A stretch of DNA of 57,012 nt from Myxococcales bacterium (GTDB lineage: Bacteria; Myxococcota_A; UBA9042). Under the pieces are notes generated by a model, which saw nothing but the letters and a program-made list of their open reading frames with translations, made no database searches and was not told where the DNA came from. The position numbers were made by a program, and so were the translations under genes. The stretch's first letter is position 1, and each line of letters starts with the position of its first letter. Of the stretch, positions 6,886 through 57,012 are shown piece by piece. The DNA lies in contig SHZF01000024.1 in NCBI GenBank assembly GCA_009692425.1, positions 1-57,012 of the forward strand. Reading direction: 5' to 3'.

Positions 6886-8903
6886 AGGGTTCTCCGGCGC
6901 AGGTAGGCGGGCCACTCCAACAGGAGGAGTCCCAGCCCCGCGAGGACGAGCCACGCCCACCGACCCGTCCCTGCGTCGGGCGATGACGCCGGCCGCGCGA
7001 CCGGCAGCGCGCCGACGGACGCCGGAGCGAGGCGCGCCGGATTTTCCGAGGCTGCGAGCTGCGTGGGGCGGGCCACCGTGCGCCCGTCGTCAGCGGTGAA
7101 GGTGTGGATGCCGTGGACCTCCGAGGAGCCCACCACGCGGTCGCCCGCCAGCCGTGCGGGACGTGGCGGGCGGCCGGGTTCACGCCACTGCCAGCCGCGG
7201 CCACCCGCCGGTACCGCGATGGACCACGGCCGGCCGGGCTGCAGCGGCACGATCTGGCCGCCCGCATCGCCTGCCAGCCATCCGAGTGCATTGTCGATCA
7301 AGATCGGCATCGCGTACCGCAGCGGCAGGTCCGTGGCGTCGAGGTCGATGCCCCACTCGATGCGCGGCGGTGGCCCGGCGCGTGCCACCATCACCGGACC
7401 CGCGCCGCGCGCGTCCGCGAGTACGACGTCGCCCGCCCGCGCCCCCAGCACGCGCACATTGTCGAAGTTCGTGTCCTGGAAACTCACCCCTCGCATCGCT
7501 GCATGGCCGGCGTCGCGGGGCACGACCTCGGGGCCGCGAGCGAACCGGGCCGTCGCGGTCGCGTCGGCGGGTGGCTCGAAAGAAATCCACAGGGCCGGCA
7601 GGTCGGCGGGCGGCGGCACCGCCATTGCGTGCCAGACGACGACATCGGGCGCGCCAGAACCTTGCAGCGCCCGCGTCCAGCGTGCCGCGTCGGGCGGACC
7701 CGGCGGCGCTTCGATCACGTCGAGCCGGGGATTCGCGGCGAGTGCGGCGCCCAGGAGCGCGTGCGTCGGTCCGGCGACCAGCACGCGCAGGCGCCGGCGC
7801 TCCGCCATGACGGCAAAGCCCCAGTCGTTCCACGGCGCGACATCGACCAGCGTCCGGTCCGCGCTCTCGACGCGCACGGCAACGCGCGGCGCCGACACGT
7901 CGAGGTCAGGCATTTCGTGGCGACTGGTTCCCGGCGGCAACGTGATCAGCAAGACGCGGCGTGTGCTGGCGTCTGCGGCGAACTCGTCGCCATTCTGGGC
8001 TGCTGCCGAGGTCGCGATCACGAGCCGCGCGGCGTGGGGTCGGGCACTGCGGTTGTCGACGTGCGCGATCAGCATCGTGCGCCCAGGGTCGCCCGGGTTG
8101 GCCCGCAAACGCACGGAGCCAATGGCCAGATCGGCCAGATCCGCCAGACCTGGCGCCGCCGCCGGCAGCGGTCCGGCCCGCACGACCTCGATCGGGTGGC
8201 CCGCCGGCGTGCGCGTCTGGACGACGCCGTCAGGTCCCCCATCCGTCACCCACAAGACGGAGGTGTGCCCGCGGCCGGTCAACGCGAGGTCGGCCATGGC
8301 GAGCGCACGGGCCGGATCACACGCCGAGGCCGTGGGGTTGAGCCCGGCCGCCGCCACGTCCGCCGCCGGTCCGAGTGCCGCCGCCAACAAGTCGAGGGCG
8401 GCAGCGCCCGTGCCCCAACCTCCAATGACGCGCGCCGCCCCGCTTGCCGCGAGCAGGAGGAAGCGCTCGTCGGGCCGCGCACCCTCCAGCCGACTCCGTA
8501 CTCGCTCGCACGCGGCGTCGATGCGCCTGCGCGGTGCGGTCTGCCCGGCCGCAGGTGGCCCGTCGCGCGTGGCGGTCGAGGCAGACGTGTCGATGCCGAT
8601 CACGATGTGATGCAGGCGGGCCTGCCGTTCCGCCGCAGTCGGCTCGTGGCGCCACATCGGCTCCGCCAACGCACCAATCAGGAGAGCCGCCACACCCAAG
8701 AACAAGGCCCACGACGCCAGCCTGCGCCAGCGCCCCCCGATCGTCCGCATCTCGTGTTCGGCGAGTACGCGCCGCCACAGCCCGGCATAGGGCACCTCGA
8801 CCTGGCGCCGGCGCGGCCTCAGCAGGTACAGCAACGTCAGCGCCACGGAGACAAAGCCCGCAGCGGCCGCCAGCGCCGCGCCGTCGGTGATGGGACCCGT
8901 CAA
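6882..8903 (-). CDS. BatA-like membrane protein with VWA-like domain
   Basis: The 673-aa protein begins with two transmembrane helices (about 8-29 and 63-82) flanking an Arg-rich loop, the arrangement of BatA-type N-terminal double-transmembrane proteins. A VWA-like strand with IGIDTSAST (a DTSAS metal-site variant) follows. A C-terminal helix (WAWLVLAGLGLLLLEW) ends in a basic tail. The large domain between is probably periplasmic. The start is TTG 8903, overlapping the DUF58 stop as TTGA, with GGGGGA 8 nt upstream. It lies between DUF58 and the large VWA protein and overlaps both by 4 nt, so the three are probably made together. Confidence 0.82.
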   Translation of the reverse strand: MTGPITDGAALAAAAGFVSVALTLLYLLRPRRRQVEVPYAGLWRRVLAEHEMRTIGGRWRRLASWALFLGVAALLIGALAEPMWRHEPTAAERQARLHHIVIGIDTSASTATRDGPPAAGQTAPRRRIDAACERVRSRLEGARPDERFLLLAASGAARVIGGWGTGAAALDLLAAALGPAADVAAAGLNPTASACDPARALAMADLALTGRGHTSVLWVTDGGPDGVVQTRTPAGHPIEVVRAGPLPAAAPGLADLADLAIGSVRLRANPGDPGRTMLIAHVDNRSARPHAARLVIATSAAAQNGDEFAADASTRRVLLITLPPGTSRHEMPDLDVSAPRVAVRVESADRTLVDVAPWNDWGFAVMAERRRLRVLVAGPTHALLGAALAANPRLDVIEAPPGPPDAARWTRALQGSGAPDVVVWHAMAVPPPADLPALWISFEPPADATATARFARGPEVVPRDAGHAAMRGVSFQDTNFDNVRVLGARAGDVVLADARGAGPVMVARAGPPPRIEWGIDLDATDLPLRYAMPILIDNALGWLAGDAGGQIVPLQPGRPWSIAVPAGGRGWQWREPGRPPRPARLAGDRVVGSSEVHGIHTFTADDGRTVARPTQLAASENPARLAPASVGALPVARPASSPDAGTGRWAWLVLAGLGLLLLEWPAYLRRRTL

Positions 8904-39795: not shown

Positions 39796-40359
39796 ATGAC
39801 GGCAACGGCAGGCGGCACGGCGACCGTGGAGCGCGTGGAGTCCTACCTCGACGCGGGCCGCATTGCCGCGAGGGTGGCAGAATTGGGCGCGGAGATCAGC
39901 GCGCGCGGCTGCAGCGATCAGCCGTTGGTCGTCGTGTGCGTGCTCAAAGGGTCGGTGATCTTTTTTGCCGACCTCGTGCGCCACATCCGCCAGCCGACCA
40001 ATCTCGTCTTCCTCGGCGTCTCGAGCTACGCTGGGGCCTTGGAGACGTCGGGCGCCGTGCGGCTGACCCACGACCTCACCATCGACATCGCTGGGCGCGA
40101 CGTGATCGTGGTCGAGGACATCGTCGACACCGGCTTGACCATGGGCTACCTCGTCGGTCTGCTCGCCCAGCGCGGACCCCACTCCCTGCGCGTGTGCACG
40201 CTGCTGCACAAGCCCGCCCGCAAGCGCGTCGATGTGTCGCTCGATCAGGTCGGCTTCACCATCGACGACGTGTTTGTGGTGGGCTACGGCCTCGACTTCG
40301 ACGAGCGCTACCGCAACCTGCCGTACATCGGTGTCATGCACTTCGACACCGCGGGCTGA
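39796..40359 (+). CDS. hpt: Hypoxanthine phosphoribosyltransferase
   Basis: The 187-aa protein has the PRPP-binding motif VIVVEDIVDTGLT (103-115), VVCVLKGSVIFFADL and YGLDFDERYRNLPYIG, all typical of Hpt. It converts hypoxanthine or guanine with PRPP to IMP or GMP in purine salvage. The length is normal for bacterial Hpt (about 180). GGGAGG precedes ATG 39796. It lies 39 nt after the UPRT-like gene and 5 nt before the MBL-fold gene, so a shared transcript is likely. Confidence 0.95.
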   Translation: MTATAGGTATVERVESYLDAGRIAARVAELGAEISARGCSDQPLVVVCVLKGSVIFFADLVRHIRQPTNLVFLGVSSYAGALETSGAVRLTHDLTIDIAGRDVIVVEDIVDTGLTMGYLVGLLAQRGPHSLRVCTLLHKPARKRVDVSLDQVGFTIDDVFVVGYGLDFDERYRNLPYIGVMHFDTAG

Positions 40360-40364
40360 GCGTC

Positions 40365-41009
40365 ATGTCCCCTGCGAACCTGCGCTGGCTCGGCCACGCG
40401 GCCCTCGACGTGCGCTGGGGCGGCGTGCGGCTGTGCATCGACCCGCACCGGCCGGGGGCGCTGGGAGGCCGGTTCCAACTGCCCGAAATCCAAGGACCGT
40501 TTGACGCGCTGGTCTCTACCCACTTTCACGAGGACCATGCAGGCTGGACGCCGGCGCTCGGCACCACGCTCCGGCTTGATCCGCCGTGTCGCATCGGTGG
40601 CCTGGAACTGACGGCGCGGCCCGCGCTGCACGACGCCGAGGGCGGCCTGCGCATGGGCCTCGTCCGCATGATTGCCGTGAGCGACGGCAACACCCGGCTG
40701 GTGCACGCCGGCGACCTGGGCCACTTCGATGGCGCCGACGTCGCGTGGCTGGCGGGCTGCGACGTCCTCGTCGTGCCGGTAGGCGGCACCTACACGCTCG
40801 ATGCCGAGGGCGCCGCGGCACTGTGCCGCGCCGTGCAGCCCCAGGTCGTCGTCCCCGTGCACTACCGCGACGCGCGCATCGACCTGCCGCTCGCCGCCGT
40901 CGAGCCGTTCCTTGGTGCGCTGGGCTGGCCGGTGGTGGGTCCGCAGGTCGCGCTCGACATGGCGAATCTGCCGTCCTCGCCGTCGATTGTACGCCTCGCC
41001 GGGCCGTGA
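40365..41009 (+). CDS. MBL-fold metal-dependent hydrolase
   Basis: The 214-aa protein has metallo-beta-lactamase motifs: the metal-binding STHFHEDHAG (HxHxDH, 53-58), LVHAGDLGHF and VVPVHYRD. The N-terminal LRWLGHAAL is typical of UPF0173/UlaG-like cytoplasmic hydrolases. It starts 5 nt after hpt (ATG 40365) without a strong SD, so it is probably cotranscribed with the nucleobase salvage genes. The substrate is not evident; RNase or lactonase activities occur in the superfamily. Confidence 0.88.
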   Translation: MSPANLRWLGHAALDVRWGGVRLCIDPHRPGALGGRFQLPEIQGPFDALVSTHFHEDHAGWTPALGTTLRLDPPCRIGGLELTARPALHDAEGGLRMGLVRMIAVSDGNTRLVHAGDLGHFDGADVAWLAGCDVLVVPVGGTYTLDAEGAAALCRAVQPQVVVPVHYRDARIDLPLAAVEPFLGALGWPVVGPQVALDMANLPSSPSIVRLAGP

Positions 41010-41165
41010 AACGGGGTGCAGCAGCGCTTGCTTGCGCGCAAGTCGGCCGCTAAACTGCTGCGTTCGATTGCGGGGGGTGGGTCGGTCGACCACTGCCGCA
41101 TGGGTTCCGCGCTCGATTTCGGCCCCTTCTCGCTGCTGCCAACGCGGGCGCGACCGAGGCATTGC

Positions 41166-43388
41166 ATGTTCCGCGCTCCCCGGTTCGCTGGTGCCTTGTT
41201 CATCTGCGGAGTCCTCGCACTCGGGTGCTCCGTCGAACCGCCCGCCGCGCAGGTGCCGGGCGCCGGTGGCGGCACGGAGAAGGCTGACGCAAGCGTGGGT
41301 GGCGACGCGAGCGGCGATGGCGCCGGTGGTACGGGCGATGCGGCGGGCGCCGGCGTCGATACGATCTCCGTCGATGTCTTGGGCGACGTCGACGTCGCGG
41401 AGAGCGGCGACGCCACGGCTACGACCGGCGACGGAGGTGCGGGGGACACGACCGCCGCAGACGACCTGATGGGTGACGCGGTCGCTGACACCGGCCTCCA
41501 CGACACCGCGCCCGATGGCGTGGCCACCGACGCCGCCAAGGACACGACCGTCACGGACACCGCCAAGGACACCGTGATCGACAGCGCCGCCGGGTGGAAG
41601 TGCTTGTCCGATACCGACTGCAAGGGTGTCGCGATGGGCGCCTGCTGGACGCCGAAATGCAACGCCAACAGCGGCAGTTGCGAACTGGCCAAGGCCGCGG
41701 ACGACGCGGTGTGCACGGTCAAAGGGTTGTGCGGCGGCCCAGGCACGTGTGCGGCGGGTGCGTGCAAGGTCACGACCGCTAGTTGCGCGCCGGCGGCGTG
41801 CGAGCCTGCCCCGATCAAGTGCGGGGACACCGTAAAGATCGACCTCGCCACGCTCGGCGCGTCCAAGTTCAAGGTGTGGCTCTGCTCCGGCATCGACTGG
41901 GAGGGCGGCGAAAAGGGCTACCTGCTGCCGCTGGACGCCACAGGGACGGTCAAGGTCGAACTCGCGCAGGACGGCACGCCGTCGGCCATGGTTGTCAGCA
42001 TCCCCGGACCCAGCGTCGGCCCCGGACCTACAGCGGGCCAGTGCAACCCGACGCAATGCGATGCCGTCGGCAAGAAACTCGTGTTCGGTGTAAGCGGCAG
42101 CCCCGGGCGCGCGGTGTACGTCGAGACGCTGAAGGGCGCGGTCGGCTCCGTGACCCTGTCCGTCAGTTGCACGGTCACCGACGTGTGCGGCGACAAGGTC
42201 TGCGCGCCGAACGAGAAATGCTCGACCTGCATGAAAGACTGCGGCGCGTGCAGCGTGTGCGGCGACGGCAAGTGCGACCTCGCGTCGGGCGAAAACTGCA
42301 CCGACTGCGACAAGGACTGCGGCGCGTGTCCGACGGAGTGCAAGCAGAAGAAGCCCGCGGACCCCGATGCCAAGGGCTGCACCGGCTGCGCGTGCGAAAA
42401 GTGCGTGTGTGCCCAAGATGGCTATTGTTGCAACACCGCGTGGGACTCGCTGTGCGTCGGCGCCTGCGAGACGAAGTGCGGCGGGCCCAAGTGTGGCGCG
42501 GGCGGCTTCTGCGGCGACGACGACTGTGAGCCGGGTGTGGAAGACGCCACGACATGCCCGAACGACTGTGCGACCGGCAAGTGTGGCGACGGCAAGTGCA
42601 CCGCGCCCGAGAGCTGCGACAAATGCACCGTCGACTGCGGGTTCTGCACGAGCGGACCCACGGCGCCGACGTGCGGCAATGGCAAATGCGACGGCAAGGA
42701 GCACTGCGGGTCGTGTCCGCAGGATTGTGGCGCGTGCGGCGATGTGGCCTGCGTGTGCGCGGCCGACCCCTACTGCTGCAAGACGGCCTACGACTCCACG
42801 TGCCAGAACGCCTGCGCCAACTGCGCCGGGGGCGCTTGCCCCAAGCCGACGTGCGGCGACGGCTCCTGCGACGCGAACGAGAAATGCTCCAGTTGCGCGG
42901 CGGACTGCGGTCCGTGCCCGCCGACGTGTGGCGACTTCACGTGCACCGCGCCGGTCGAGAACCTGACGACGTGCGCGAAGGACTGCGCGAAGTGCGGCGA
43001 CAGCGTGTGTTCGGCGGGCATCGAGACGTGCAAGACGTGCCTGAAGGACTGCGGTGAGTGCCCGCCCGAGTGCGGCGATGCGAAGTGCAATGGCACCGAA
43101 ACCCTGGAGACCTGCCCGAAGGATTGCGCGAAGTGCGGTGACGCCAAGTGCTCGGCACCAAACGAGAACTGCAAGACCTGCGACCAGGATTGCGGGGCGT
43201 GCGTGTGTGGCGACGGCCAGTGCGACGACCCCAAGGAGACCTTCCAGACCTGCCCGGCCGACTGCGCCGGCTGCCAGAGCAAGTGCGGCAAGTCGAGCAA
43301 AAACGCCAACGGTAGCGTCTGCTGGTGCGACGGCCTCTGCGAAGCACAGGGCGACTGCTGCGACGACAAGAAGCAGTTCTGTCCGTAG
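41166..43388 (+). CDS. Cys-rich lipoprotein with CGDGKC modules and somatomedin-B-like C-terminus
   Basis: The 740-aa lipoprotein has the classical lipobox LALGC (Cys21) after MFRAPRFAGALFICGV. A Gly/Asp/Ala/Thr-rich linker (about 22-135) follows, then a first Cys-rich segment. Next is a beta-sandwich-like domain (GDTVKIDLATLG ... VTLSVSC, about 215-340). Eleven CGD-x-x-C ... C-x-x-DC modules follow, with two CxCAxDxYCC segments between. The last 40 residues (about 701-740, C-x3-C ... CWCDGLC ... DCCDD) match the somatomedin-B cysteine pattern. It is probably an outer-surface adhesion or matrix protein. ATG 41166 has GAGG 6 nt upstream. polA follows. Confidence 0.88.
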   Translation: MFRAPRFAGALFICGVLALGCSVEPPAAQVPGAGGGTEKADASVGGDASGDGAGGTGDAAGAGVDTISVDVLGDVDVAESGDATATTGDGGAGDTTAADDLMGDAVADTGLHDTAPDGVATDAAKDTTVTDTAKDTVIDSAAGWKCLSDTDCKGVAMGACWTPKCNANSGSCELAKAADDAVCTVKGLCGGPGTCAAGACKVTTASCAPAACEPAPIKCGDTVKIDLATLGASKFKVWLCSGIDWEGGEKGYLLPLDATGTVKVELAQDGTPSAMVVSIPGPSVGPGPTAGQCNPTQCDAVGKKLVFGVSGSPGRAVYVETLKGAVGSVTLSVSCTVTDVCGDKVCAPNEKCSTCMKDCGACSVCGDGKCDLASGENCTDCDKDCGACPTECKQKKPADPDAKGCTGCACEKCVCAQDGYCCNTAWDSLCVGACETKCGGPKCGAGGFCGDDDCEPGVEDATTCPNDCATGKCGDGKCTAPESCDKCTVDCGFCTSGPTAPTCGNGKCDGKEHCGSCPQDCGACGDVACVCAADPYCCKTAYDSTCQNACANCAGGACPKPTCGDGSCDANEKCSSCAADCGPCPPTCGDFTCTAPVENLTTCAKDCAKCGDSVCSAGIETCKTCLKDCGECPPECGDAKCNGTETLETCPKDCAKCGDAKCSAPNENCKTCDQDCGACVCGDGQCDDPKETFQTCPADCAGCQSKCGKSSKNANGSVCWCDGLCEAQGDCCDDKKQFCP
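42185..43265. repeat. Eleven CGDGKC-type cysteine modules
   Basis: Within the lipoprotein gene, CGD/CGN-x-x-C modules recur about every 60-90 bp, most with C-x-x-C-x-x-DCG-x-C at the end. Two additional C-VCA-x-D-x-YCC segments interrupt the series. Protein-level repetition is clear; nucleotide identity between units is moderate. Confidence 0.8.
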
Positions 43389-43409
43389 GGCAGCAAGCGG
43401 GGGACTGCG

Positions 43410-46178
43410 GTGGCCGACAAGCGTCCCCTGCTCGCGCTCATCGACGGCTCGCACGCCGTGTTTCGCGCCTACTTCGCGGTGCGCGGGCTGACGGCACCCG
43501 ACGGACGGCCCACCGGTGCGCTGTTCGGCTTCGTGTCGATGTTGATGAAAATCCAGCGCGAACGGGCGCCGACGCGACTCGCCGTGTGCTTCGACACCGC
43601 GGCCCCGACGTTTCGCCACCACCTGCTGCCGACGTACAAGGCGAACCGGCCCGCGATGCCCGAGGACCTGGCGGCGCAGTGGCCCATCGCGCTCGAACTC
43701 GTCAAGGAACTTGGGCTGCCGCTGCTCGTCCAGGACGGGCTCGAGGCCGACGACCTGATTGCGACGCTCGCCGTGCGCGCCCATGCCGCCGGTTGGGACG
43801 TTCTTGTCGTCTCCTCGGACAAGGACCTCATGCAACTCGTCGTCGATGCCCAGGACGGTGGCCCGCGCATCGCCCAACTCGATGACCAGAAGGAGACGAT
43901 CTTCGACGCGGCGGGCGTGACGGCGAAATGGGGCGTGCCGCCCGACCGTGTGGGCGATCTGCTCGCGATCATGGGCGATGCCTCGGACAATGTGCCCGGC
44001 GTCAAGGGCGTGGGTGAGAAGGGTGCGGTCAAGCTGCTGCAGCAATTCGGCTCGCTCGATGCGATCTACGCCCGCCTCGACGAGGTCGAGTCGCCGCGCA
44101 CCCGCGAGCTTCTGCAGCAGAGCGCCCAGGCTGCCCGCACGGCCCGCCAGGTCGTCGCGCTGGTGACCGACGCTGCGGTGCCGTGGACGCTCGATGATCT
44201 GGCGCCGCGCGAACCCGATCGGCCGGCGCTCGTCGAGCGTTTTGCCCAGCTCGGCTTCAAGCGGTTGTTGAAGGATCAACAGGACCACGGCGCCGCGCCG
44301 ACCGCCGCCGTGCACCACAGCGTGGTGACCGACGCCCTCGAGATGCAGGGCATCGCCGAGCAGATTCGCGCCAGCCGCTGCGTCGCGCTGTGCACCGTGA
44401 CGAACCGCGCGGACCCCGAGCGCGTGCTGCCGATGTGGGGCGACCTCGTCGGCGTCGGCCTGCAGTGGTCGCCGCTCCACACGGCGTACCTGCCCTTGCG
44501 GCCTGGCCCGACCACCGCGCCGCTGTGGGCGCCCGGCCCGTCGACGCCAGCGACACTGGACCTGTTCGCAGCCCCGCAGCCGCCCGCGCGTTCGCCGGTG
44601 CTGACGGCGCTGGCGGCGGTGCTCGAAGACGCGGGCATCGCAAAGGTGTCGCACCACGCGAAGTATGACGACCTCGTGCTGCGGCGCCACGGCGTGCGGG
44701 TGCGCGGCTGGGCGGGCGATCCGATGCTGGCCAGCTACCTGTGCGAGCCGGAGAAATTCACGCATTCGCTGCGCAACATCGCGTTCCACACGCTCGGGGT
44801 GCAACTCGCCGACGACGCGGATGTCCTGGGCCGGGGCAAGGCACAGGTGCAGTGGGGTGCGCTCGACCTGCACAAGGCCGCCGACCACGTGGCCGAACGC
44901 GCCGCGCTGGCGGGCAAGTGCGAGCGGGCGCTGCGCAGCGTGCTCGACGCCGCCGGCACGCGCGCGCTGTACGACGACCTCGAAGTGCCGCTCGCAACCG
45001 TGCTGGCCGACTGCGAATGGGCCGGCATCGCGATCGACGTCGGCCAACTCGCCGAGCAGAGCCTTTGGCTGGAGCAAGAGGCCGCGGTCGAGGAGCGCGC
45101 CATCCACCAACTCGCCGGCCGCGCGTTCTCGATCGGCTCGCCGCAGCAGTTGGGCGTCGTGCTCTTCGAGGAGTTGAAGCTGCCGGCGAAGAAGCGCACG
45201 CAGACCGGCTGGTCCACCGACCAGAGCGTGCTTGAAGCGTTGCACGACGCCCACCCGATCTGTGCACGCGTGCTGCGCTGGCGCCAACTGAGCAAGCTGA
45301 AAGGTACGTACACCGACGCGCTGCCTGCGCTCGTGCACCCGCAGACCGGGCGGCTGCACACGTGCTTCCAGCAGGCGGTCGCCGCGACGGGGCGGCTGGC
45401 CTCGACGGACCCGAACCTGCAGAACATCCCGATCCGGACGCCGGAGGGTCGGCGCATTCGTTCGGCCTTCGTGGCGCCGCCAGGTCATGCTCTGATGAGC
45501 GCCGACTACAGCCAGATCGAACTGCGCGTGATGGCCCACTTGGCCGACGACCCCGGGCTCATCGGTGCATTCCGCAGCGGCCACGACATCCACCGCCAGA
45601 CCGCCGCGCAGATTTTCGGCGTGATGCCGGCGCTGGTGACGACCGAGCAGCGTGCCGCCGCCAAGACGATCAACTTCGGCGTGCTGTACGGCATGGGCCC
45701 CCAGCGGTTGGGGCGCGAGATCAATGTGTCGCTGAAGGAAGCCAAGGCGTTCATCGACCGGTATTTCGAGCGGTTTCCGGCCGTGAACGCCTGGATCGAG
45801 GGCACCCTCGAAACGGCGCGCCGTACGGGCGAAGTGCGCACGCTGTTTGGCCGCCGCCGGCCGGTGCCGGGGCTGGTGTCGAACGCGCCGGCCGAGCGGG
45901 CAGCGGCTGAGCGGGTGGCCGTCAATACGCCCGTGCAGGGGACGGCGGCCGACCTCATCAAGCGCGCGATGCTGGCCGTGCACCGCGACCTGGGCCGGGC
46001 GGGGCTGCGGGCGCGGTTGCTGCTGCAGGTCCACGACGAACTGGTGCTTGAAGTGCCGCACGCCGAGATTGACGACGTGACGGCCTTGGTGCGGGCGGCG
46101 ATGGCCGGGGTGGCAGACCTGAAGGTGCCGTTGCAGGTCGACGTGGGGACTGGGCCGAACTGGGCGGACGCGCACTGA
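43410..46178 (+). CDS. polA: DNA polymerase I, apparently without proofreading residues
   Basis: The 922-aa protein has an intact N-terminal 5'-nuclease (LIDGSHAVFRAYFA, VVSSDKDLMQLV, GDASDNVPGVKGVG). Its polymerase motifs are motif A DYSQIELR, motif B RAAAKTINFGVLYG and motif C QVHDE. It acts in repair and Okazaki maturation. The middle 3'-5' exonuclease domain is degenerate. By-eye alignment puts CTVT where E. coli has DTET (Asp355, Glu357) and HVAER where it has YAAED (Asp501); Asp424 may survive in KYDD. GTG 43410 is preferred, with GGGGGA upstream. It converges on the epimerase gene. Confidence 0.95.
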   Translation: MADKRPLLALIDGSHAVFRAYFAVRGLTAPDGRPTGALFGFVSMLMKIQRERAPTRLAVCFDTAAPTFRHHLLPTYKANRPAMPEDLAAQWPIALELVKELGLPLLVQDGLEADDLIATLAVRAHAAGWDVLVVSSDKDLMQLVVDAQDGGPRIAQLDDQKETIFDAAGVTAKWGVPPDRVGDLLAIMGDASDNVPGVKGVGEKGAVKLLQQFGSLDAIYARLDEVESPRTRELLQQSAQAARTARQVVALVTDAAVPWTLDDLAPREPDRPALVERFAQLGFKRLLKDQQDHGAAPTAAVHHSVVTDALEMQGIAEQIRASRCVALCTVTNRADPERVLPMWGDLVGVGLQWSPLHTAYLPLRPGPTTAPLWAPGPSTPATLDLFAAPQPPARSPVLTALAAVLEDAGIAKVSHHAKYDDLVLRRHGVRVRGWAGDPMLASYLCEPEKFTHSLRNIAFHTLGVQLADDADVLGRGKAQVQWGALDLHKAADHVAERAALAGKCERALRSVLDAAGTRALYDDLEVPLATVLADCEWAGIAIDVGQLAEQSLWLEQEAAVEERAIHQLAGRAFSIGSPQQLGVVLFEELKLPAKKRTQTGWSTDQSVLEALHDAHPICARVLRWRQLSKLKGTYTDALPALVHPQTGRLHTCFQQAVAATGRLASTDPNLQNIPIRTPEGRRIRSAFVAPPGHALMSADYSQIELRVMAHLADDPGLIGAFRSGHDIHRQTAAQIFGVMPALVTTEQRAAAKTINFGVLYGMGPQRLGREINVSLKEAKAFIDRYFERFPAVNAWIEGTLETARRTGEVRTLFGRRRPVPGLVSNAPAERAAAERVAVNTPVQGTAADLIKRAMLAVHRDLGRAGLRARLLLQVHDELVLEVPHAEIDDVTALVRAAMAGVADLKVPLQVDVGTGPNWADAH

Positions 46179-47521: not shown

Positions 47522-48589
47522 GTGAAGGAGAAGTCCATCGAGGTGAAGGTCGGCGCGCTCGTGCTCCTGTGCACGGCGTTGCTCGTCGCGTTCATTATCG
47601 TGCTGGGCGACATGGGCGGCGGGGGCGGCTTTCCCGTGTTCGCCGACTTCCCCACGGCCAGCGACATCAAGCCCGGTGCGCCGGTCAAGATCGCCGGCGT
47701 GACGGCGGGCCGGGTCATCGGCATCGAGTACTGGGGCGGCCGCAAGGACCCGAAGTCGGGGCAACGCGTCACCGTGCGCATCCTCCTCGACGTCGACCCG
47801 GGCAAGGGGCAGACGCTGCACGACGACGCGCAGTTCTTCATCTCCACCCAAGGCATCCTGGGCGAGAAGTACATCGAGGTCGATCCCGGCAACTACGAGC
47901 GGCCGGCGCTCAAGCCCGGCGCCGTCGTCCACGGCGTTCCACCACTGCGGCTTGAAGTGCTCGGCCAGCAGTTGAGCAAGGTCGCCGGGGCCGTGTCGCG
48001 CCTGCTCGAATCGAACGAGAAGACGATCGGCGAAATCCTCCTGCACGCCGACGAAGCCGTGCTGACCGGCAAGAAGACGCTCGAAGATGCCGACAAGCTC
48101 ATCGTGGACAACCGCGACACCGTGGCCGACACGCTTGCGAAGCTGCAACTCGCTGCAGATCGGGCCGAGAAACTGGCGGCGGCGCTGCAAGGGGCGGTCG
48201 GAGACGGCAAGGCCATCCGCCGCACGATCGCCCACGCCGAAGCCGTCGCCGCCGAAGTGGACGCGAACACGGGGCCGCTGCTCAAGGACGTGCGTGCCGT
48301 CGCCCGCAACGCCAAGGGCCTCAGCGAACGCCTGCGCGACGAGCCGACCGTCGAGGTGCTGCTCGGCAACAAGGGGCACGCCAAGGTGCTGGCGATGGTC
48401 GACAAGATCGGCGGCGCGGTCGACAAGGCCGAGGGCGCGGTCGACGACGTCAAGGCGGTCACGAAGAACGCGCGCGACGGCCGCGGCACGGTCGGTGGCC
48501 TGCTCATGGACAACGAACTGTTCATGGACCTGAAACTGCTGCTGAAGGACCTCAAGCGGCATCCATGGAAGTTCATCTGGCGCGAATGA
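47522..48589 (+). CDS. mlaD: MCE-domain MlaD-like substrate-binding protein
   Basis: The 355-aa protein has one N-terminal helix (about 9-28, VGALVLLCTALLVAFIIVL). The MCE domain (about 36-115) has GAPVKIAGVTAGRVIGI and DDAQFFISTQGILGEKYIEV. A long helical C-terminal part (about 140-330) of heptad-like Ala/Lys/Asp repeats, probably a coiled coil, follows. MlaD forms a hexameric lipid-binding ring with MlaF and the permease. It is longer than the E. coli protein because of the helical tail. GTG 47522 is used. Its end overlaps the next gene as ATGA. Confidence 0.9.
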   Translation: MKEKSIEVKVGALVLLCTALLVAFIIVLGDMGGGGGFPVFADFPTASDIKPGAPVKIAGVTAGRVIGIEYWGGRKDPKSGQRVTVRILLDVDPGKGQTLHDDAQFFISTQGILGEKYIEVDPGNYERPALKPGAVVHGVPPLRLEVLGQQLSKVAGAVSRLLESNEKTIGEILLHADEAVLTGKKTLEDADKLIVDNRDTVADTLAKLQLAADRAEKLAAALQGAVGDGKAIRRTIAHAEAVAAEVDANTGPLLKDVRAVARNAKGLSERLRDEPTVEVLLGNKGHAKVLAMVDKIGGAVDKAEGAVDDVKAVTKNARDGRGTVGGLLMDNELFMDLKLLLKDLKRHPWKFIWRE

Positions 48590-51504
48590 CCCGCACAAAA
48601 GCTCACCCCTGCGCTGCCAGGAGTCTGGCACGATGCGACCGCGGACGCAGGACGCACCGGGGGTCCGAAACGACGCGCACCCACCATCAGGGTCGGTCAA
48701 GCATTGCCTGGGCGCTCGCGTCATTGTGGGCGTTTGGTTGCAGTGCCGATGCGAGCGTCGAGGGGGCCGTCGATGCAGGTGCCCGTACCTCCGACGCGGC
48801 CGCTGCCCAAGATGCCATGGCTCCGCCAGGTGACGCAGCGGGTGCCGACGCGAGCGGACTCGACACGGACTCCGACGCGCCCGGCACCGACGCGAGTGCG
48901 CGCACACCTGCCGACTCCCGCGCGGCCGCCGACGCCAAGCTGTCTGTCGACGACGGCGATGCTGCCAGGGGGGGCGGACCAGACGCGGCGCCGACCATCC
49001 TGGCTGCCTGCGTGACCCAGGCGACGGCTGTGTGCGACGACGCCAACCCGTGCACGACCGACACTTGCCACGCCACGCTCGGCTGCACCCACGAAGCGAA
49101 CCTCTTGCCTTGCTCTGACGGCAATGCGTGCAGCGACGGCGACTCATGCCAGGCCGGCGCATGTGCGACCGGCAAGAGCAAGCTGTGCGCCGACGGCAAT
49201 GCGTGTACGGCAGACGGCTGCGACCCGAAGCTCAGCTGCGTCTTTACCGCCATGACGGCGCCCTGCGAAGACGGCAGCGTCTGTAGCCTCGGCGACGGAT
49301 GCAGCGGCGGCGTCTGCCTGCCCGGCGCCCCGACCGCCTGCGACGACGGCAACCCGTGCACGGCCGACGCCTGTGACCCGACAGCGGGCTGCCTGCACGG
49401 GGCGACCAGCAACGCGTGTTCGGATGGCGACGCCTGTACGGTCGGCGATCAGTGCAGCGGCGGCCTGTGCGCGGCCGGCACAGCGCTCGCGTGCATCGAT
49501 GGCAACGCGTGCACGACCGACGGCTGCCTGCCGGCGAGCGGCTGCGTCTGGGGCAACAGCGGCGGACCGTGCACCGACGGCAACGCGTGCACGCTCGGTG
49601 ACCAGTGCGCCCAAGCAGCATGCGTGGGTGGGCCTGGGCTCGATTGCGACGATGGCAAGGCGTGCACGGTCGATGGCTGCGACGGCAAGCTCGGGTGCCA
49701 GCACGCAGCGTCGAGCCAGGCGTGCGATGACGGCGACCCGTGCACGATCGGAGAGGCGTGCCTGGCGAATGGCTGCAAGGGCGGCAAGCTGGTCGCATGC
49801 GCAGACGGCAACCCGTGCACGGCCGACTCGTGCAAGGCCGACGTCGGCTGCCAGAACTTGCCCTTGAGCGGCGCGTGCTCTGACGGCTCAGTGTGCACGA
49901 CGAACGACACCTGCCTCGACGGTGCGTGTGTGCCCGGCGCGCCGCTGGCGTGCGACGACGGCAACCTGTGCACGCTCGACGGGTGCGGGGCGACGGCCGG
50001 CTGCAAGGCGACGTTCGTCGCGGCGGCTTGCAGCGATGGCGACCCGTGCTCAGCCGACGACGTCTGCTCGGGCGGCACCTGCAAGGCGGGCGTCGGCGTC
50101 GCCTGTTCCGACGGCAACCCGTGCACGACCGACGCGTGCAAGGCCGGCGCGGGCTGTACGGCGGCGAACAACACCGCGGCCTGCAGCGACAGCAACGTGT
50201 GCACCGCGGCCGACGCGTGCCAGGGCGGCGCCTGCGCGCCCGGCGCGGCGACCGTGTGCAACGACGGCAACGCGTGCACGCTCGACCTGTGCGACGCGGC
50301 GAAAGGGTGTGCGAGCCAGGCCGTCGCGTTTGCGTGCGACGACGGCAACGTGTGCACGTTGGGCGACAGTTGTTCCGGAGGCAAGTGCTTGGCGGGCAAG
50401 GCCACCGTCTGCCAGGACGGCAACGCGTGTACCGACGACGCTTGCGATGCCAAGGTCGGCTGCATCACCGCGTTCAACTCCGTGCCGTGCAACGACAAGA
50501 ACGCGTGCACGAGCGCCGACGCCTGCAAGACCGGCTCCTGTGCCGGGGCGGCGGTCGAGTGCAACGACAGCAACGTCTGCACGACCGACGTGTGCGATGC
50601 CGCCAAGGGGTGCGTCGGTGTGCCGGCGGCGGGCGTGTGCTCCGACGGAAACAAGTGCACCCACAGCGACGCGTGCCAGGACGGCGTGTGCGTGGGTGCG
50701 GCGATCGGGTGCGACGACGGCAATCCGTGCACCGCGGACGCCTGCAAGCCGCTGCTGGGTTGTGTCGCGCCGAATGCGCCCGGGGGTGCCAGTTGCGGGC
50801 CCGGAGCGTGCAACGCCGGTAAGTGTCTGTTCGGGACGCCGACGCATCCTGCGGAGTCGTGCAAGCAGGTCCTCGCCGTGGCGGGCAAGGTGCCGTCGGG
50901 GCTGTACTGGCTCGACCCGGACGGTGCCAGCGGAGCCAACGACAAGTTTCAGGCGTGGTGCGACATGACCGGCGACGGCGGCGGTTGGACGTTGGTGTTG
51001 AAGGTCAACGGCCAGAATGTGACATTCGGTCACGCGTCGCCGCTGTGGGATACGAGCGCGGTCTTGAACGGGGGTGCCCCCGACTTCGATCTGAACGAGG
51101 CACGCCTACCGGGCTACGGCAGCGTGGCGTTCTCCGAGGTGCGCGTGGGCATGAAGGAGGGCGCGGCCGACCCGAAGTTCCTGGTGCTGTCGATCGGCGC
51201 CACCTCTCTCGGTTACCTGATCGGCCAGGGCAAGGTCGTCGCGACGAAGGCGGGCCGCGAAGCGTGGAAGGGCCTGTTCGGTACCGGCTCGCTGCAGACC
51301 TTCTGCAACCAGGAGGGCTTCAACACGCTGCGTTGCCGCATCGGCATCGTCGGCAACAACGAAAACGACTGCAACACGCCCGACTCGTGGCTCGGCATCG
51401 GCTGCGCGGGCGGCTTCGCGGCAGGCAACTTTGCGGACGGCAACTGGGGCGCGGACAATGGCGGCAAGGCGACGAAGGCCTTTGGCTATGTGATGGTTCG
51501 GTAG
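48586..51504 (+). CDS. Giant Cys-rich lipoprotein with DGN-CT repeats and fibrinogen-like C-terminus
   Basis: The 972-aa protein has a lipobox-like AFGC (Cys52) after a hydrophobic segment and a long Asp/Ala/Ser linker. Residues about 150-725 are 23 modules of two alternating types, CxDGNxCTxDxC...GC and CxDGxxCTxGDxC...GxC. The C-terminal 220 residues (about 753-972) begin PSGLYWLDPDG and WCDMTGDGGGWTL, the N-terminal signature of fibrinogen-related domains. It is probably a surface lectin-like or adhesive protein. ATG 48586 overlaps the mlaD stop as ATGA. The 50-residue region before the lipobox is long, so an alternative start closer to it is possible. Confidence 0.87.
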   Translation: MTRTKAHPCAARSLARCDRGRRTHRGSETTRTHHQGRSSIAWALASLWAFGCSADASVEGAVDAGARTSDAAAAQDAMAPPGDAAGADASGLDTDSDAPGTDASARTPADSRAAADAKLSVDDGDAARGGGPDAAPTILAACVTQATAVCDDANPCTTDTCHATLGCTHEANLLPCSDGNACSDGDSCQAGACATGKSKLCADGNACTADGCDPKLSCVFTAMTAPCEDGSVCSLGDGCSGGVCLPGAPTACDDGNPCTADACDPTAGCLHGATSNACSDGDACTVGDQCSGGLCAAGTALACIDGNACTTDGCLPASGCVWGNSGGPCTDGNACTLGDQCAQAACVGGPGLDCDDGKACTVDGCDGKLGCQHAASSQACDDGDPCTIGEACLANGCKGGKLVACADGNPCTADSCKADVGCQNLPLSGACSDGSVCTTNDTCLDGACVPGAPLACDDGNLCTLDGCGATAGCKATFVAAACSDGDPCSADDVCSGGTCKAGVGVACSDGNPCTTDACKAGAGCTAANNTAACSDSNVCTAADACQGGACAPGAATVCNDGNACTLDLCDAAKGCASQAVAFACDDGNVCTLGDSCSGGKCLAGKATVCQDGNACTDDACDAKVGCITAFNSVPCNDKNACTSADACKTGSCAGAAVECNDSNVCTTDVCDAAKGCVGVPAAGVCSDGNKCTHSDACQDGVCVGAAIGCDDGNPCTADACKPLLGCVAPNAPGGASCGPGACNAGKCLFGTPTHPAESCKQVLAVAGKVPSGLYWLDPDGASGANDKFQAWCDMTGDGGGWTLVLKVNGQNVTFGHASPLWDTSAVLNGGAPDFDLNEARLPGYGSVAFSEVRVGMKEGAADPKFLVLSIGATSLGYLIGQGKVVATKAGREAWKGLFGTGSLQTFCNQEGFNTLRCRIGIVGNNENDCNTPDSWLGIGCAGGFAAGNFADGNWGADNGGKATKAFGYVMVR
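49033..50762. repeat. Twenty-three alternating DGN-CT cysteine modules
   Basis: Alternating A-type (GC end) and B-type (GDxC...GxC end) modules of about 25 residues each fill this stretch. I count 12 A and 11 B, which start and end with A. The pair repeat is about 150 bp. The same modules occur in the next gene, so recombination between the two genes is possible. Confidence 0.85.
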
Positions 51505-51584: not shown

Positions 51585-54500
51585 ATGAAGGCTTGGGCGC
51601 TGGCAGGAGCGGTAGGGACCATCGTGGCGGTGTGCGGTTGCGGCAACCCGGACGCCGTGGTTGCGGCCGCGGCGGCGCAGGCAGACACCGACGCGGCGCC
51701 GCAACCCGACGTGGGAACTGCCGTCGATGCGGCCCCCGGGGCAGACGTCGGCATCGCGCCGGACGAAGTGGCAGCGGACCTGGCAGTCGGGCGCGGCACA
51801 GACGTCGGCTCCCCCGACCGCACTGCCCCCGACGGTGCTTCGGCGCCCGACGCCCCGCCGGGCGACCGGGCCACCTGCGACCCGTGCAGCGCCAGCGCCC
51901 AGTGCCAGGACGCGGCCGCAGCGTGCGTTGCGGTCGGCACGCCAGCCGGCTCGGCGGGCTTCTTCTGCATGGGGGCGTGCGGCCCCGACGGCTCCTGCCC
52001 GGCCGGCAGCGCCTGCGAGACGCGGACGACCGCCGAGGGTGCCAACGCCAACGTCTGCATCCCCACCGCCGATGCGTGCGGCTGTGGCGCCCTGGCCAAG
52101 GCGGCGGGCTGGACGACGCCGTGCTTCCAGCCAGCGATCGACGCCGCAGGCCTCGTCGTGGGCAACTGCGCCGGTACCTGGTCGTGCGCTGGCGGCGGCT
52201 GCGATGCGCCCAAGCCGGCGCCCGAGTCCTGCAACGGCAAGGACGACGACTGCGACGGCCAGACCGACGAAGGCGACCCAGCGGGCTTGTGCGACGAAGG
52301 CAACCCGTGCACGCAGGGTGCGGCATGCGTCGCTGGCACGTGTAAGGCGGGCCCGGATTTGTGCGCGTGCCACGCGGACGCGGAGTGCGGTCTCGCGAAC
52401 CTGTGCCAGGGCAAAGCGATCTGCGACAAATCGACGCTTCCGTGGGCGTGCAAGGTCGTGCCCGGCAGCGCGGTGTCGTGCGACCTGACGAAGGCCACGG
52501 CGTGCGCGAGCCCGGCGTGCGAGCCGACGAGCGGCCAGTGCAAGGCCAAGCCCCAAGCCGACGGCACGCCGTGTGACGCCGATGCCAGCGCGTGCACCGC
52601 GGGCGACAGTTGCCAGGAGGGGAAATGCAAGCCTGGCGCAGCGGTGTCGTGCGACGACGGCAATCCGTGCAGCCACGATGCGTGCGGTGCGACGGGATGC
52701 AGCCACCTGCCCCAGGTCGGCCCGTGCGACGACGGCAACGCGTGTACGGGCGCCGATGCGTGCAAGCAAGGCGTGTGCCAGGCCGGCCCGGTCAAACCGT
52801 GCAGCGACGGACTGCCGTGCACGGTCGACGGGTGCGACGCGAAGACCGGCGGCTGCACGGCGAAGCCCGGGATCGACGGCGCCGTGTGCGACGACGGCAA
52901 CGCCTGCACGGTTGCCGAAACGTGCCAGGCGGGGGCGTGCCAGGGCGGGGCGGCCAAGGCCTGCAGCGACAGCAATCCATGCACGGCCGATGGTTGTGCG
53001 GCCCAAAGCGGGTGCACGCACGAGTTCACGACCCAGGCGTGCGAAGACGGCAGCCCGTGCACGATCGGCGACACATGTGCGGCCGGGCAATGCAAGGCGG
53101 GCACCAACAACTGTACCTGCGCGACAGTGGCCGACTGTCTCGCCACGCAGAACAAGAATCCGTGCGCGGGGGCGTTTCAGTGTGACACCAAGGCGAGCCC
53201 GCCGAAGTGCGTGGTCGTCCCCGGCTCGGCGCCCGTGTGCCCCGCCGGCGGACCGTGCACCGTGGGCGTCTGCAACCCCGTCAGCGGGGCGTGCGCCAAG
53301 CAAACGCTGGCGGTGGGCGCTGGCTGCGACGACGGGGATGCGTGCACGGCAACCGAAAAATGCGACGCGGGTGCCAAGTGCGTGGGCACGGCGGCAGCGT
53401 GCAGCGATGGACTGCCGTGCACGGTCGATGCCTGCGACAAGCTGAAGGGATGCGCCCATACGCCGATGACGGGGCCCTGCAACGACGGCAACGCGTGCAC
53501 TGCCGGCGACACCTGCGCGGGCGCTGCGTGCGTGCCCGGCCCCGCCCAGGTCTGCGCTGACAATTCGGCATGTACGCTGGATGGTTGTGCGCCGGCGACC
53601 GGCTGCACGCACGACGCCAAGCCGTTCGAGGGCAAGGTGTGCGGCTCCGGCGCGGGGGCGTGCGGCCCCGCCGCGTGTGCGGCTGGCGTGTGTGTCGGGA
53701 TCGGCGCGAACCCGTGCAACGACGGCAACCCGTGCACCGACGACAGTTGCATCAGCGGTCAGGGCTGCTCTCACGCGGCTAACGCTGCCGCGTGTAGCGA
53801 TGGCAACCCGTGTACGACCGGCGACGGCTGCGCGATTGGCGCCTGCAAGCCCGGCGGCCCGACGCCGTGCGGCGACGGCAACTCGTGTACAGACGACAAC
53901 TGCACCAAGGCGACCGGGTGCACCCACGCGCAAAACGTGGCCACTTGCGACGACGACGACGCTTGCTCAGTGACCGACACCTGTGCCGCGGGCGCGTGCA
54001 AGGGGTCGCCCAAGGTTTGCGACGACGGTGTCGCGTGCACGCTCGACGCTTGCATCCCGGGCGGCATGTGCTCGGTGTCGGCGGCTGCGATGGAGGGCAA
54101 GGCCTGCCCGCCGCCCGGCGCCTGCAACGCGAACGGCACGTGCGGCGCGGGCAAGTGCACCACCCCGGCCTCGCACTGCCCGGTCAAGAAGGGGCGCGAA
54201 ATCTGGCCGCCGATCTTTCCCAAGACGCTCGGGCCCGCGCAGACGATGTACGACCCGGTGGGTGTGCATACTGCGTACGTGACCGTGGCACCCGACGACT
54301 GGACGAAGTACCTCGAACTCGTGGCGTCGAAGAAGCAGACGAACACGTTCTTTCCCGCCGATGTCACGATCGACGGCGTTGCGTACGGTCAGGTCGGCAT
54401 CCGCACGTTCGGCTACGGCAGCCTGTTCTACAACCCGAACAAGCCGAACATCCGCGTCAAGTTCGACGCGTTTGTCGCAGGCAAGCAGGGGCCCGACGGC

Positions 54501-55376
54501 CTGCACAGCGTGCGGTTCAAGTCATCGGGCCAGGATCGCACGTACCTGAAGCAGCCGCTTAGCCAGATGCTGGTGCAGCTCAACGGCGGCTACGCTCCGC
54601 GGTTTTCATGGGTGCGCGTGTGGGTCAACGGGCAGCCGAAGGGCCTGTACCAGTTGTTCGAGCACGTCGACAAGAAGTTCTACCACGCCAACTTCGACAA
54701 TGACGACGGCAACGAATACCAGCGCAAGACGACGTGCATGGGGCTGAACTGCCCGCCGGCCGGCTGCGACGCGCTCGCGGGCTACTACCTGGGTGACCCC
54801 GGCGACGCGAAGGATGTCGTCGCGCTCGCCAAGGTCGGCAAGCTGAGCCCAGACGCCTCGTGGGCCCAAGAAGCGGACGGACTGGTCAACTTCGAGTCGC
54901 TGCTGGCCGAATACGCCTGGGAGGCGGTGAGCAGCGACATCGACAGCCTCGCGGCGGCCGGGCAGAACTTCACAATCTACCACAACCTCGACACGAACAA
55001 GCTGGAGTTCATCCCCACCGGCCAGGACCTCGTGATGGGAACGAGCGGCGCCTGGTACGACGTGTGGAAGCCGTGGGGGCCGCCGAACTCGTGGTGCAAC
55101 GGCCGCGTCGACCAATTCTTCACGCGCATCGTGGCGACACCGGGCTTGCAGGCCAAGCTGCTGGAAAAACTGAAGTTCTTGCGTTGCGGTCCGTTTGCGA
55201 CGGCGACGTTCAACGCGGTCATCGACAACTACCGGGCGCTGCTGAAGCCCGATGTCTACGGCGACCCCGCCGGGAAGGCGACGGCGGCGGAACTCGATGC
55301 GGCGTATGCGAGCCTCAAGAAATACGTGGTGGACCGCAACAAGTACCTGGATGGCGTGGTCGGGGCCTGCCCGTAG
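51585..55376 (+). CDS. Cys-rich lipoprotein with DGN-CT repeats and CotH-kinase-like C-terminus
   Basis: The 1263-aa protein has signal and lipobox-like VCGC (Cys19). A CNGKDDDCDGQTDEG motif (about 216-231) is like the MopE-type metal-binding motif. About seventeen DGN-CT modules follow (about 236-825). The C-terminal 370 residues (about 895-1263) match CotH kinase folds: TAYVTVAPDDWTKYL, GQVGIRTFGYGS, YLKQPLSQMLVQLNGGYAPR, WVNGQPKGLYQLFEHVDKKF and YHNLDTNKLEFIPTGQDLV. CotH proteins include secreted kinases; whether this one is active is unknown. ATG 51585 follows GGGGGCAGG. It lies 80 nt after its sister gene. Confidence 0.9.
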   Translation: MKAWALAGAVGTIVAVCGCGNPDAVVAAAAAQADTDAAPQPDVGTAVDAAPGADVGIAPDEVAADLAVGRGTDVGSPDRTAPDGASAPDAPPGDRATCDPCSASAQCQDAAAACVAVGTPAGSAGFFCMGACGPDGSCPAGSACETRTTAEGANANVCIPTADACGCGALAKAAGWTTPCFQPAIDAAGLVVGNCAGTWSCAGGGCDAPKPAPESCNGKDDDCDGQTDEGDPAGLCDEGNPCTQGAACVAGTCKAGPDLCACHADAECGLANLCQGKAICDKSTLPWACKVVPGSAVSCDLTKATACASPACEPTSGQCKAKPQADGTPCDADASACTAGDSCQEGKCKPGAAVSCDDGNPCSHDACGATGCSHLPQVGPCDDGNACTGADACKQGVCQAGPVKPCSDGLPCTVDGCDAKTGGCTAKPGIDGAVCDDGNACTVAETCQAGACQGGAAKACSDSNPCTADGCAAQSGCTHEFTTQACEDGSPCTIGDTCAAGQCKAGTNNCTCATVADCLATQNKNPCAGAFQCDTKASPPKCVVVPGSAPVCPAGGPCTVGVCNPVSGACAKQTLAVGAGCDDGDACTATEKCDAGAKCVGTAAACSDGLPCTVDACDKLKGCAHTPMTGPCNDGNACTAGDTCAGAACVPGPAQVCADNSACTLDGCAPATGCTHDAKPFEGKVCGSGAGACGPAACAAGVCVGIGANPCNDGNPCTDDSCISGQGCSHAANAAACSDGNPCTTGDGCAIGACKPGGPTPCGDGNSCTDDNCTKATGCTHAQNVATCDDDDACSVTDTCAAGACKGSPKVCDDGVACTLDACIPGGMCSVSAAAMEGKACPPPGACNANGTCGAGKCTTPASHCPVKKGREIWPPIFPKTLGPAQTMYDPVGVHTAYVTVAPDDWTKYLELVASKKQTNTFFPADVTIDGVAYGQVGIRTFGYGSLFYNPNKPNIRVKFDAFVAGKQGPDGLHSVRFKSSGQDRTYLKQPLSQMLVQLNGGYAPRFSWVRVWVNGQPKGLYQLFEHVDKKFYHANFDNDDGNEYQRKTTCMGLNCPPAGCDALAGYYLGDPGDAKDVVALAKVGKLSPDASWAQEADGLVNFESLLAEYAWEAVSSDIDSLAAAGQNFTIYHNLDTNKLEFIPTGQDLVMGTSGAWYDVWKPWGPPNSWCNGRVDQFFTRIVATPGLQAKLLEKLKFLRCGPFATATFNAVIDNYRALLKPDVYGDPAGKATAAELDAAYASLKKYVVDRNKYLDGVVGACP
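52290..54053. repeat. About seventeen DGN-CT modules in the CotH-like protein gene
   Basis: The modules follow the same alternating pattern as in the preceding gene but are less regular. Two spacer segments (NNCTCATVADCLA and GSGAGACGPAAC) interrupt them. The C-terminal modules end just before the CotH-like domain. Confidence 0.8.
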
Positions 55377-55659: not shown

Positions 55660-57012
55660 CTACGAGCCTGAGCCCGGCTCGCGGTCCAGGCCGTCGATCA
55701 ACGCGCCAAGCGAGTGCGTGAGGCGGTCGAATTCGCGGCGATCGTGGGCGGGCACTGGCGCGCGCAACTCGTCCTCGACCGACTGCGGATCGACGTAGCG
55801 GCCGTTGCGCCTCACGCCAAAGTGCAGGTGCGGGCCCGTCGAGCGTCCAGTCGTCCCCACGAATCCGATCGTTTCGCCCTTGCCGACCCGCTCGCCGGCC
55901 CGCACGCCGAGGGCGAACTTCTGCAAGTGCATGTACTCCGTGGCCCAGCCGCTGTCGTGGCGCAAGCGCACGAGATTGCCCGCTGCGCCCGCACGCCCCA
56001 CCGCAGTCAACACACCGTCGGCCGCTGCGAACACCGGTGTGCCCCGCGCTGCGCCGAAGTCGACCCCGTAGTGCGCTTTCAACTTGTGCAGGATCGGGTG
56101 CAGGCGCATCCCGAACGTCGATGTCGTGTGGCCACTGCGCAGGGGCTGGCGCAAGAACAGGCTCTCGAGCGACTGGCCATCGGCCGCGAAGTAGGCGCCC
56201 CTTGTCGGGCCGGGCGTGCCTGCGCCGCCTGCCGCCGCCGTCGAGTGCGTCGGGGCGAACCAGAAGGCTGTCACCCGGTCGCCTGCCACGGCGGCACGCC
56301 ATTGCAATGCCACGAGGCGGTGGTAGCGCAGCAGTTGCTCGCCATCCATGAGCTTGTCGACGACAAGACGCAGTTCATCGCCGGTGCGCGGTGCGATTTC
56401 TTCCGCCAGTCGCTCACCCAGCACGGCACCCACCGCGAGCGCCAGTCCGTCGCCCTCGCCACACCGCCGCAGCGAGCTTTCGAGCGAACCGATCACGCCG
56501 CACCGCAGCGCCGTCCGCACCAACGTGCCGGGCAGGCCGCCTTCGCGGGCCTCGTAGCCGCCACCCGGCGCGCGCTCGACCGTCACGCCCTCGCCATGCT
56601 GCGGCGCTACGACGAGGGTTGCGAGCCCGCCCGCGTCCATCACGCCCGCGCCGTCGAAGCGGCCCCACAGGCGCCAGCCCGCCTGCAGTTTCGTCGGTGC
56701 GCGCACGGTTGCGTAGGCATCGACGACCGCCCGTGCGACGGACGGCGTCAGGTAGAGCCGACCCAGCGCTGCGGTCAGGCCCTCGCCCGGCTGGACGACC
56801 CACGACCGCGTCAGCGCCCCGGGTGCTGCAACATCGCTCGCGCCCAAGTGAACGGTTCGGCGTGCGGTCGGCGCCTCGACGAATCCCAGTGGCGCCTCGA
56901 CGAATCCCGGTGGCGCCTCGACGAATCCCGGTGGCGCCTCGACGAATCCCGGTGGCGCCTCGACGAATCCCGGTGGCGCCTCGACGAATCCCGGTGGCGC
57001 CTCGACGAATCC
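55660..57012 (-). CDS. M23 metallopeptidase, 5' end beyond the window
   Basis: The C-terminal half carries an M23 zinc peptidase domain: STFGMRLHPILHKLKAHYGVDFGA (zinc His and Asp), RLRHDSGWATEYMHLQKF, VGTTGRSTGPHLHFG (HxH). These ligands cleave peptidoglycan cross-links. The N-terminal portion resembles OapA/Csd3-type domains (SWVVQPGEGLTAAL). The frame has no stop upstream and continues past TTG 56847 through a 21-bp repeat to the right edge. The seven-residue repeat unit reads GFVEAPP. So the protein is longer than the TTG start would suggest, and its N-terminus is outside. It may be an LytM-like hydrolase with a repetitive linker. Confidence 0.9.
   Translation of the reverse strand, partial: GFVEAPPGFVEAPPGFVEAPPGFVEAPPGFVEAPPGFVEAPLGFVEAPTARRTVHLGASDVAAPGALTRSWVVQPGEGLTAALGRLYLTPSVARAVVDAYATVRAPTKLQAGWRLWGRFDGAGVMDAGGLATLVVAPQHGEGVTVERAPGGGYEAREGGLPGTLVRTALRCGVIGSLESSLRRCGEGDGLALAVGAVLGERLAEEIAPRTGDELRLVVDKLMDGEQLLRYHRLVALQWRAAVAGDRVTAFWFAPTHSTAAAGGAGTPGPTRGAYFAADGQSLESLFLRQPLRSGHTTSTFGMRLHPILHKLKAHYGVDFGAARGTPVFAAADGVLTAVGRAGAAGNLVRLRHDSGWATEYMHLQKFALGVRAGERVGKGETIGFVGTTGRSTGPHLHFGVRRNGRYVDPQSVEDELRAPVPAHDRREFDRLTHSLGALIDGLDREPGSGS
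56870..57012. repeat. 21-bp tandem repeat encoding GFVEAPP
   Basis: Six complete and one partial copies of GGCGCCTCGACGAATCCCGGT run to the window edge. The first copy has CAGT in place of CGGT. On the minus strand each copy reads GFVEAPP in frame with the M23 peptidase. The uniformity of copies 2-7 suggests recent expansion. Confidence 0.92.

Follow-up and report, generated by a model that had tools for sequence, protein, structure and literature searches.

Does the CotH-type fold at the end of a stalked Myxococcales lipoprotein still serve as a kinase, or has it been put to another use outside the cytoplasm? The question is raised by one gene in the window, the whole 57,012-nucleotide stretch of DNA analysed here, whose C-terminal part had been described in an initial annotation as a CotH-kinase-like domain displayed on a DGN-CT repeat arm.

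The gene, its product and the adjacent partner

The gene extends on the forward strand from an ATG at 51585 to a stop at 55376 and encodes a predicted lipoprotein of 1263 residues with a DGN-CT stalk and a CotH-fold head. It lies inside a stop-to-stop frame of 1517 residues, and the frame 54262-55376 corresponds to the C-terminal 371 residues of the protein. Since six other genomes encode the protein over most of its length (50-54% identity), we regard 51585-55376 as a real gene, an assignment also backed by the open reading frame, its GC3 of 0.87 and the Pfam matches. An NCBIfam search gave no match to the CotH protein, and a plasmid search returned a weak Paenibacillus match and nothing else. 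Named relatives come mostly from lake and groundwater Myxococcales metagenome-assembled genomes (MAGs). One record, CAMDBH010000066.1, is titled as a Klebsiella pneumoniae MAG and carries the Myxococcales CotH gene pair; the bin appears to be misnamed.

By pattern, the N-terminus holds a putative signal peptide with a lipobox (MKAWALAGAVGTIVAVCG followed by Cys19; 51585-51641, forward strand) that reads IVAVCG/CGNP around the cleavage point, and similar lipoboxes occur in several orthologs. This agrees with the earlier description of the product as a lipoprotein, and the CotH protein is predicted to be exported, probably to the outer surface.

The upstream gene (48565-51504, forward strand, start codon uncertain) encodes a probable lipoprotein of the same build, in which a DGN-CT stalk bears a fibrinogen-like head (GGGWT / Fibrinogen_C) matching PF00147 and NF040941. 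The two genes are adjacent in all six genomes that have sequence on that side, and their spacing, from a 4-bp overlap to an 80-bp gap, suggests that they form one transcript. The fibrinogen-like head is 57-63% identical among genomes, a conservation equal to that of the CotH head, and no other shared neighbour of the CotH gene was found across the compared genomes. Elsewhere, the window contains a 1955-residue open frame without a Pfam match (40308-46175, minus strand) and, at 56865-57012, a tandem repeat of 21 bp in 7 copies (97% match) that codes for GFVEAPP units; the repeat lies where an M23 peptidase frame begins and is cut by the contig end.

The repeat arm of the CotH protein consists of alternating DGN-CT units of about 25 residues, 15 by pattern, at residues 356-835 (52650-54089, forward strand). 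The units follow the family pattern CxDGNxCTxxxC and match PF00526 (Dicty_CTDC) at 68.4 bits against a cut-off of 27, which bears out the earlier identification of the arm. Among seven genomes an aligned arm segment of 496 residues spans 494-496 residues, and all 119 Cys columns past residue 100 are invariant; the partner's arm measures 581-582 residues across six genomes, and each of its 101 Cys columns is invariant. From these constant lengths and invariant cysteines we infer that the repeat number is held fixed. In many repeat-bearing surface proteins it is not. We make no claim about the shape of the stalk, because the AlphaFold model of the arm reached a pLDDT of only 46.7.

The CotH-fold head and its active-site residues

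The head occupies residues 888-1263 (54246-55373, forward strand). PF08757 matched residues 952-1255 over nearly the full profile (positions 12-322 of 322) at 96.2 bits (E 3.6e-27; cut-off 23.8 bits), and a search of the genome for CotH found the same place at 100.7 bits. An AlphaFold model of the head, built on a 19-sequence alignment, had a pLDDT of 91.5 and a pTM of 0.90; in this model the fold begins near residue 888 (54246), slightly upstream of 54262. Foldseek against the PDB returned Bacillus cereus CotH 5jda as the top match (E 1.3e-20, TM 0.83-0.87), and VIA-align superposed the model on 5jd9 with a Z score of 37.1 and an rmsd of 2.2 over 341 residues; PI4K type II, the family ranked after it, scored Z 11.7. 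By sequence alone, the solved CotH matches the window protein weakly (E 0.006). Judged by profile and model, the C-terminal head has the CotH fold, as had been proposed. Comparison of close orthologs gave dN/dS values of 0.075-0.25 for the head, indicating purifying selection.

Roles of individual CotH residues were taken from PMC7821199 and PMC12189002. The B. subtilis CotH variants D228Q and D251A are inactive (PMC7821199), equivalents of PKA D166, N171 and D184 have been described, and Tyr142 and Trp245 sandwich the adenine (PMC12189002). The numbering of the solved B. cereus chain begins at residue 0, which puts the W of PWDYD at 245; in this chain 5 positions separate Asp from Asn and 23 separate the two Asp residues, in agreement with D228/D251. 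The window protein retains both catalytic-loop residues, D1120 (54942-54944), equivalent to PKA D166 and B. subtilis D228, and N1128 (54966-54968), equivalent to PKA N171 (all codons given here are on the forward strand). At 55017-55022, T1145 and G1146 replace Trp245 and the Asp that is D251 in B. subtilis and D184 in PKA; since this Asp is Gly, we do not file the protein as a CotH kinase. The aromatic sandwich is likewise lost: besides Trp245, Tyr142 is probably replaced by Gln, Q1046 in the alignment, an equivalence that depends on a one-residue numbering offset. An Asp, D1148 (55026-55028), follows G1146 by two residues. A three-residue catalytic-loop insert was considered as a clade-specific trait; since Myxococcota CotH proteins usually have a spacing of 8, the idea was abandoned.

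The kinase-like character given to the module in the initial annotation therefore holds for the fold, D1120 and N1128, and fails for the D184 equivalent, Trp245 and probably Tyr142; the loss of all ATP-contact residues, against which that proposal was to be checked, did not occur. The likeness to the Bacillus spore-coat kinase (PF08757; 5jd9, 5jda) covers the whole fold (Z 37), the catalytic-loop Asp and Asn and the GxY..E motif. Unlike that protein, the window protein has Gly for the Asp of PWDxD and Thr for Trp245, and it is a predicted lipoprotein whose stalk is Cys-rich and whose head has six invariant cysteines.

The replacements are shared across a lineage. Sixty-eight distinct CotH domains comprised 13 with Asp at the D184 position, 26 of the PWGxD type, 27 with Gly and no Trp, and 2 others. 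Where the position is Gly, the +2 residue is Asp without exception (53/53, D1148 among them), which leaves room for the metal ligand to have been displaced; where it is Asp, the +2 residue is Asp in 8, Asn in 4 and Glu in 1 (Fisher p 1.4e-4 for +2 Asp with Gly versus Asp, a value that ignores kinship among the sequences). The D1120 position is Asp in 27 of 27 xGxD sequences, and D1120, N1128 and D1148 are all invariant in the subfamily, whose members are 39-60% identical to the window copy.

In a CotH tree built without the motif columns, 25 xGxD rows formed one clade with a support of 100/99. All 25 belong to a single GTDB family, have Gly in place of the D251-equivalent Asp and have lost the adenine-stacking Trp. 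The same tree set apart a group of 16 rows that are PWGxD for the most part (one row is WDxD and one HGxD). The wider Myxococcota group has PWGxD and keeps the Trp in most of its proteins. Tree and motif counts together indicate that the loss of the DFG-type Asp is an older feature that predates the window gene, not a fault of its own, and that the Trp loss is a further step. The genome also encodes another CotH (5943-8597 of its stretch), which keeps a canonical PWDLE motif and provides a natural internal control.

Stalks, heads and fusions in related genomes

The DGN-CT stalk is common in the host genome, where 1621 loose repeat candidates were found; the 150 that were scored and listed all lie above the cut-off. 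In a survey restricted to genome stretches picked for strong repeats, 48 frames had at least three repeats. Heads on the stalked proteins were LamG3, RCC1, NHL, SBBP, LTD, EGF, fibrinogen-like and Somatomedin_B, mostly interaction-type modules, and CotH is one among many heads on this stalk. This genome-wide expansion with varied C-terminal interaction domains may outrank the CotH head in interest. Because the stalk is so common, its presence on the partner says little by itself.

The joining of repeats and CotH, which the initial annotation took for a possible new architecture, is not unique to this gene: within the same family, eight other genomes hold at least nine more genes that combine the two. 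Outside this family, DGN-CT repeats were absent from the approximately 45 CotH frames scanned. Among 42 other Myxococcota CotH proteins, fused domains included Lectin_C (6), NPCBM (6), TSP_3 (6), MopE (4) and LTD (3). With fusion elsewhere and gene pairing here, the association of CotH with a lectin-type partner is recurrent. Some Myxococcota proteins fuse a PWGxD CotH with a C-type lectin, and three of them also have MopE modules. Myxococcota PWGxD proteins resemble the window protein in the Gly at the DFG Asp, the invariant +2 Asp and the association with recognition modules; they differ in keeping the Trp, in carrying the lectin, where present, in the same chain rather than in a paired protein, and, among those scanned, in having no DGN-CT stalk.

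Stalkless short CotH genes were also considered as possible bearers of the window's neighbours, and this was dropped; stalkless xGxD CotH lipoproteins are instead divergent from a polysaccharide deacetylase gene and a conserved lipoprotein gene, an arrangement that counts as indirect evidence only. The product of the latter has no Pfam match and looks hydrolase-like by eye. For a conserved-looking open reading frame beside one stalkless CotH locus, Pfam gave no match; the frame probably lies antisense to a real gene.

Two known systems invite comparison. TraA, the recognition receptor of Myxococcus and the subject of PMC6372800, is one of them. At the cell surface, TraA presents its recognition head from a stalk rich in Cys; the window protein would follow the same general plan with a different head, different repeats and a different anchor. 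CotH-like proteins also adjoin pel exopolysaccharide genes in streptococci and clostridia (PMC7112168, PMC12345266); these too have the CotH fold outside spores, and in S. intermedius the protein is secreted and tied to surface polysaccharide and aggregation. Their accessory domains are FN3 rather than DGN-CT, and beside the window gene the fibrinogen-like partner is the sole conserved neighbour. Searching the literature for a link between CotH and deltaproteobacterial lipoproteins or myxobacteria yielded nothing.

Possible roles of the CotH head

We favour the reading, with a probability of about 0.5, that the CotH fold has been redeployed as a stalk-borne extracytoplasmic module for ligand binding or atypical transfer, and not as a canonical ATP kinase. 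The exported lipoprotein would hold its head off the membrane on a long disulfide-rich stalk and work with the upstream-encoded partner and its fibrinogen-like head. Canonical ATP protein kinase activity is unlikely, since throughout the clade other residues stand in place of the DFG-type Asp and the adenine-stacking Trp, and ATP should be scarce outside the cytoplasm. The conservation of D1120, N1128 and D1148 nevertheless suggests a working pocket, which would probably bind a metal together with a ligand other than adenine, or carry out an atypical transfer. Together, the pair would most likely recognise or modify extracellular matrix, or glycans or proteins on sibling or prey surfaces. Several points weigh against this reading: the invariant D1148 could stand in for the lost Asp, most CotH proteins lack a fused lectin, and the stalk shared with the partner is, as noted above, too common to say much by itself.

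The first of these points leads to a possible but rather unlikely alternative: the head could be an atypical protein kinase that is active and phosphorylates extracytoplasmic proteins, its metal-binding Asp having shifted by two positions in the series PWDxD, PWGxD, xGxD. CASK has Gly at the equivalent position and is nonetheless an active kinase. The intact fold, purifying selection on the head, the retained D1120 and N1128, and the strict pairing of Gly with the +2 Asp (53/53, compared with D/E/N at 8/1/4 beside an Asp) all fit such an enzyme, although the motif counts are phylogenetically non-independent. The Trp, which most PWGxD-group proteins keep, is moreover gone in the xGxD clade, and the supply of ATP outside the cytoplasm is unclear.

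A more specific picture, of which we are doubtful, is that the pair forms a surface device of two stalks of set length. Its CotH domain, lacking the adenine clamp and with its metal ligand displaced, would act on an extracellular substrate by way of a compound other than ATP, in tandem with the fibrinogen-like lectin. Slightly less probable again is a pure pseudokinase, in which the fold would be only a rigid protein- or glycan-binding head and the pocket conserved for structure; loss of the D251 equivalent, of Trp245 and probably of Tyr142, and the lectin-type modules associated with CotH, are in keeping with this, yet invariance of D1120, N1128 and D1148 at 39-60% identity exceeds the needs of a dead pocket. 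It is very improbable that the gene has no set function and is only a CotH remnant, in decay or joined by chance to a stalk whose repeats are abundant in the host genome, as seven genomes keep the architecture, length, register and every Cys, and dN/dS is far below 1.

In the favoured reading, the changed ATP- and metal-binding residues and the adjoining fibrinogen-like partner suggest that a kinase fold has found another use beyond the cytoplasm, in recognition or in work on the cell-surface matrix. CotH proteins are also common in organisms that form no spores. The PWDxD, PWGxD and xGxD series within one lineage shows which parts of the active site are dispensable, and both gene pairing and fusion tie the fold to lectin-type partners. 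The kinase status of non-spore CotH proteins thereby becomes directly testable with one small, well-predicted domain.
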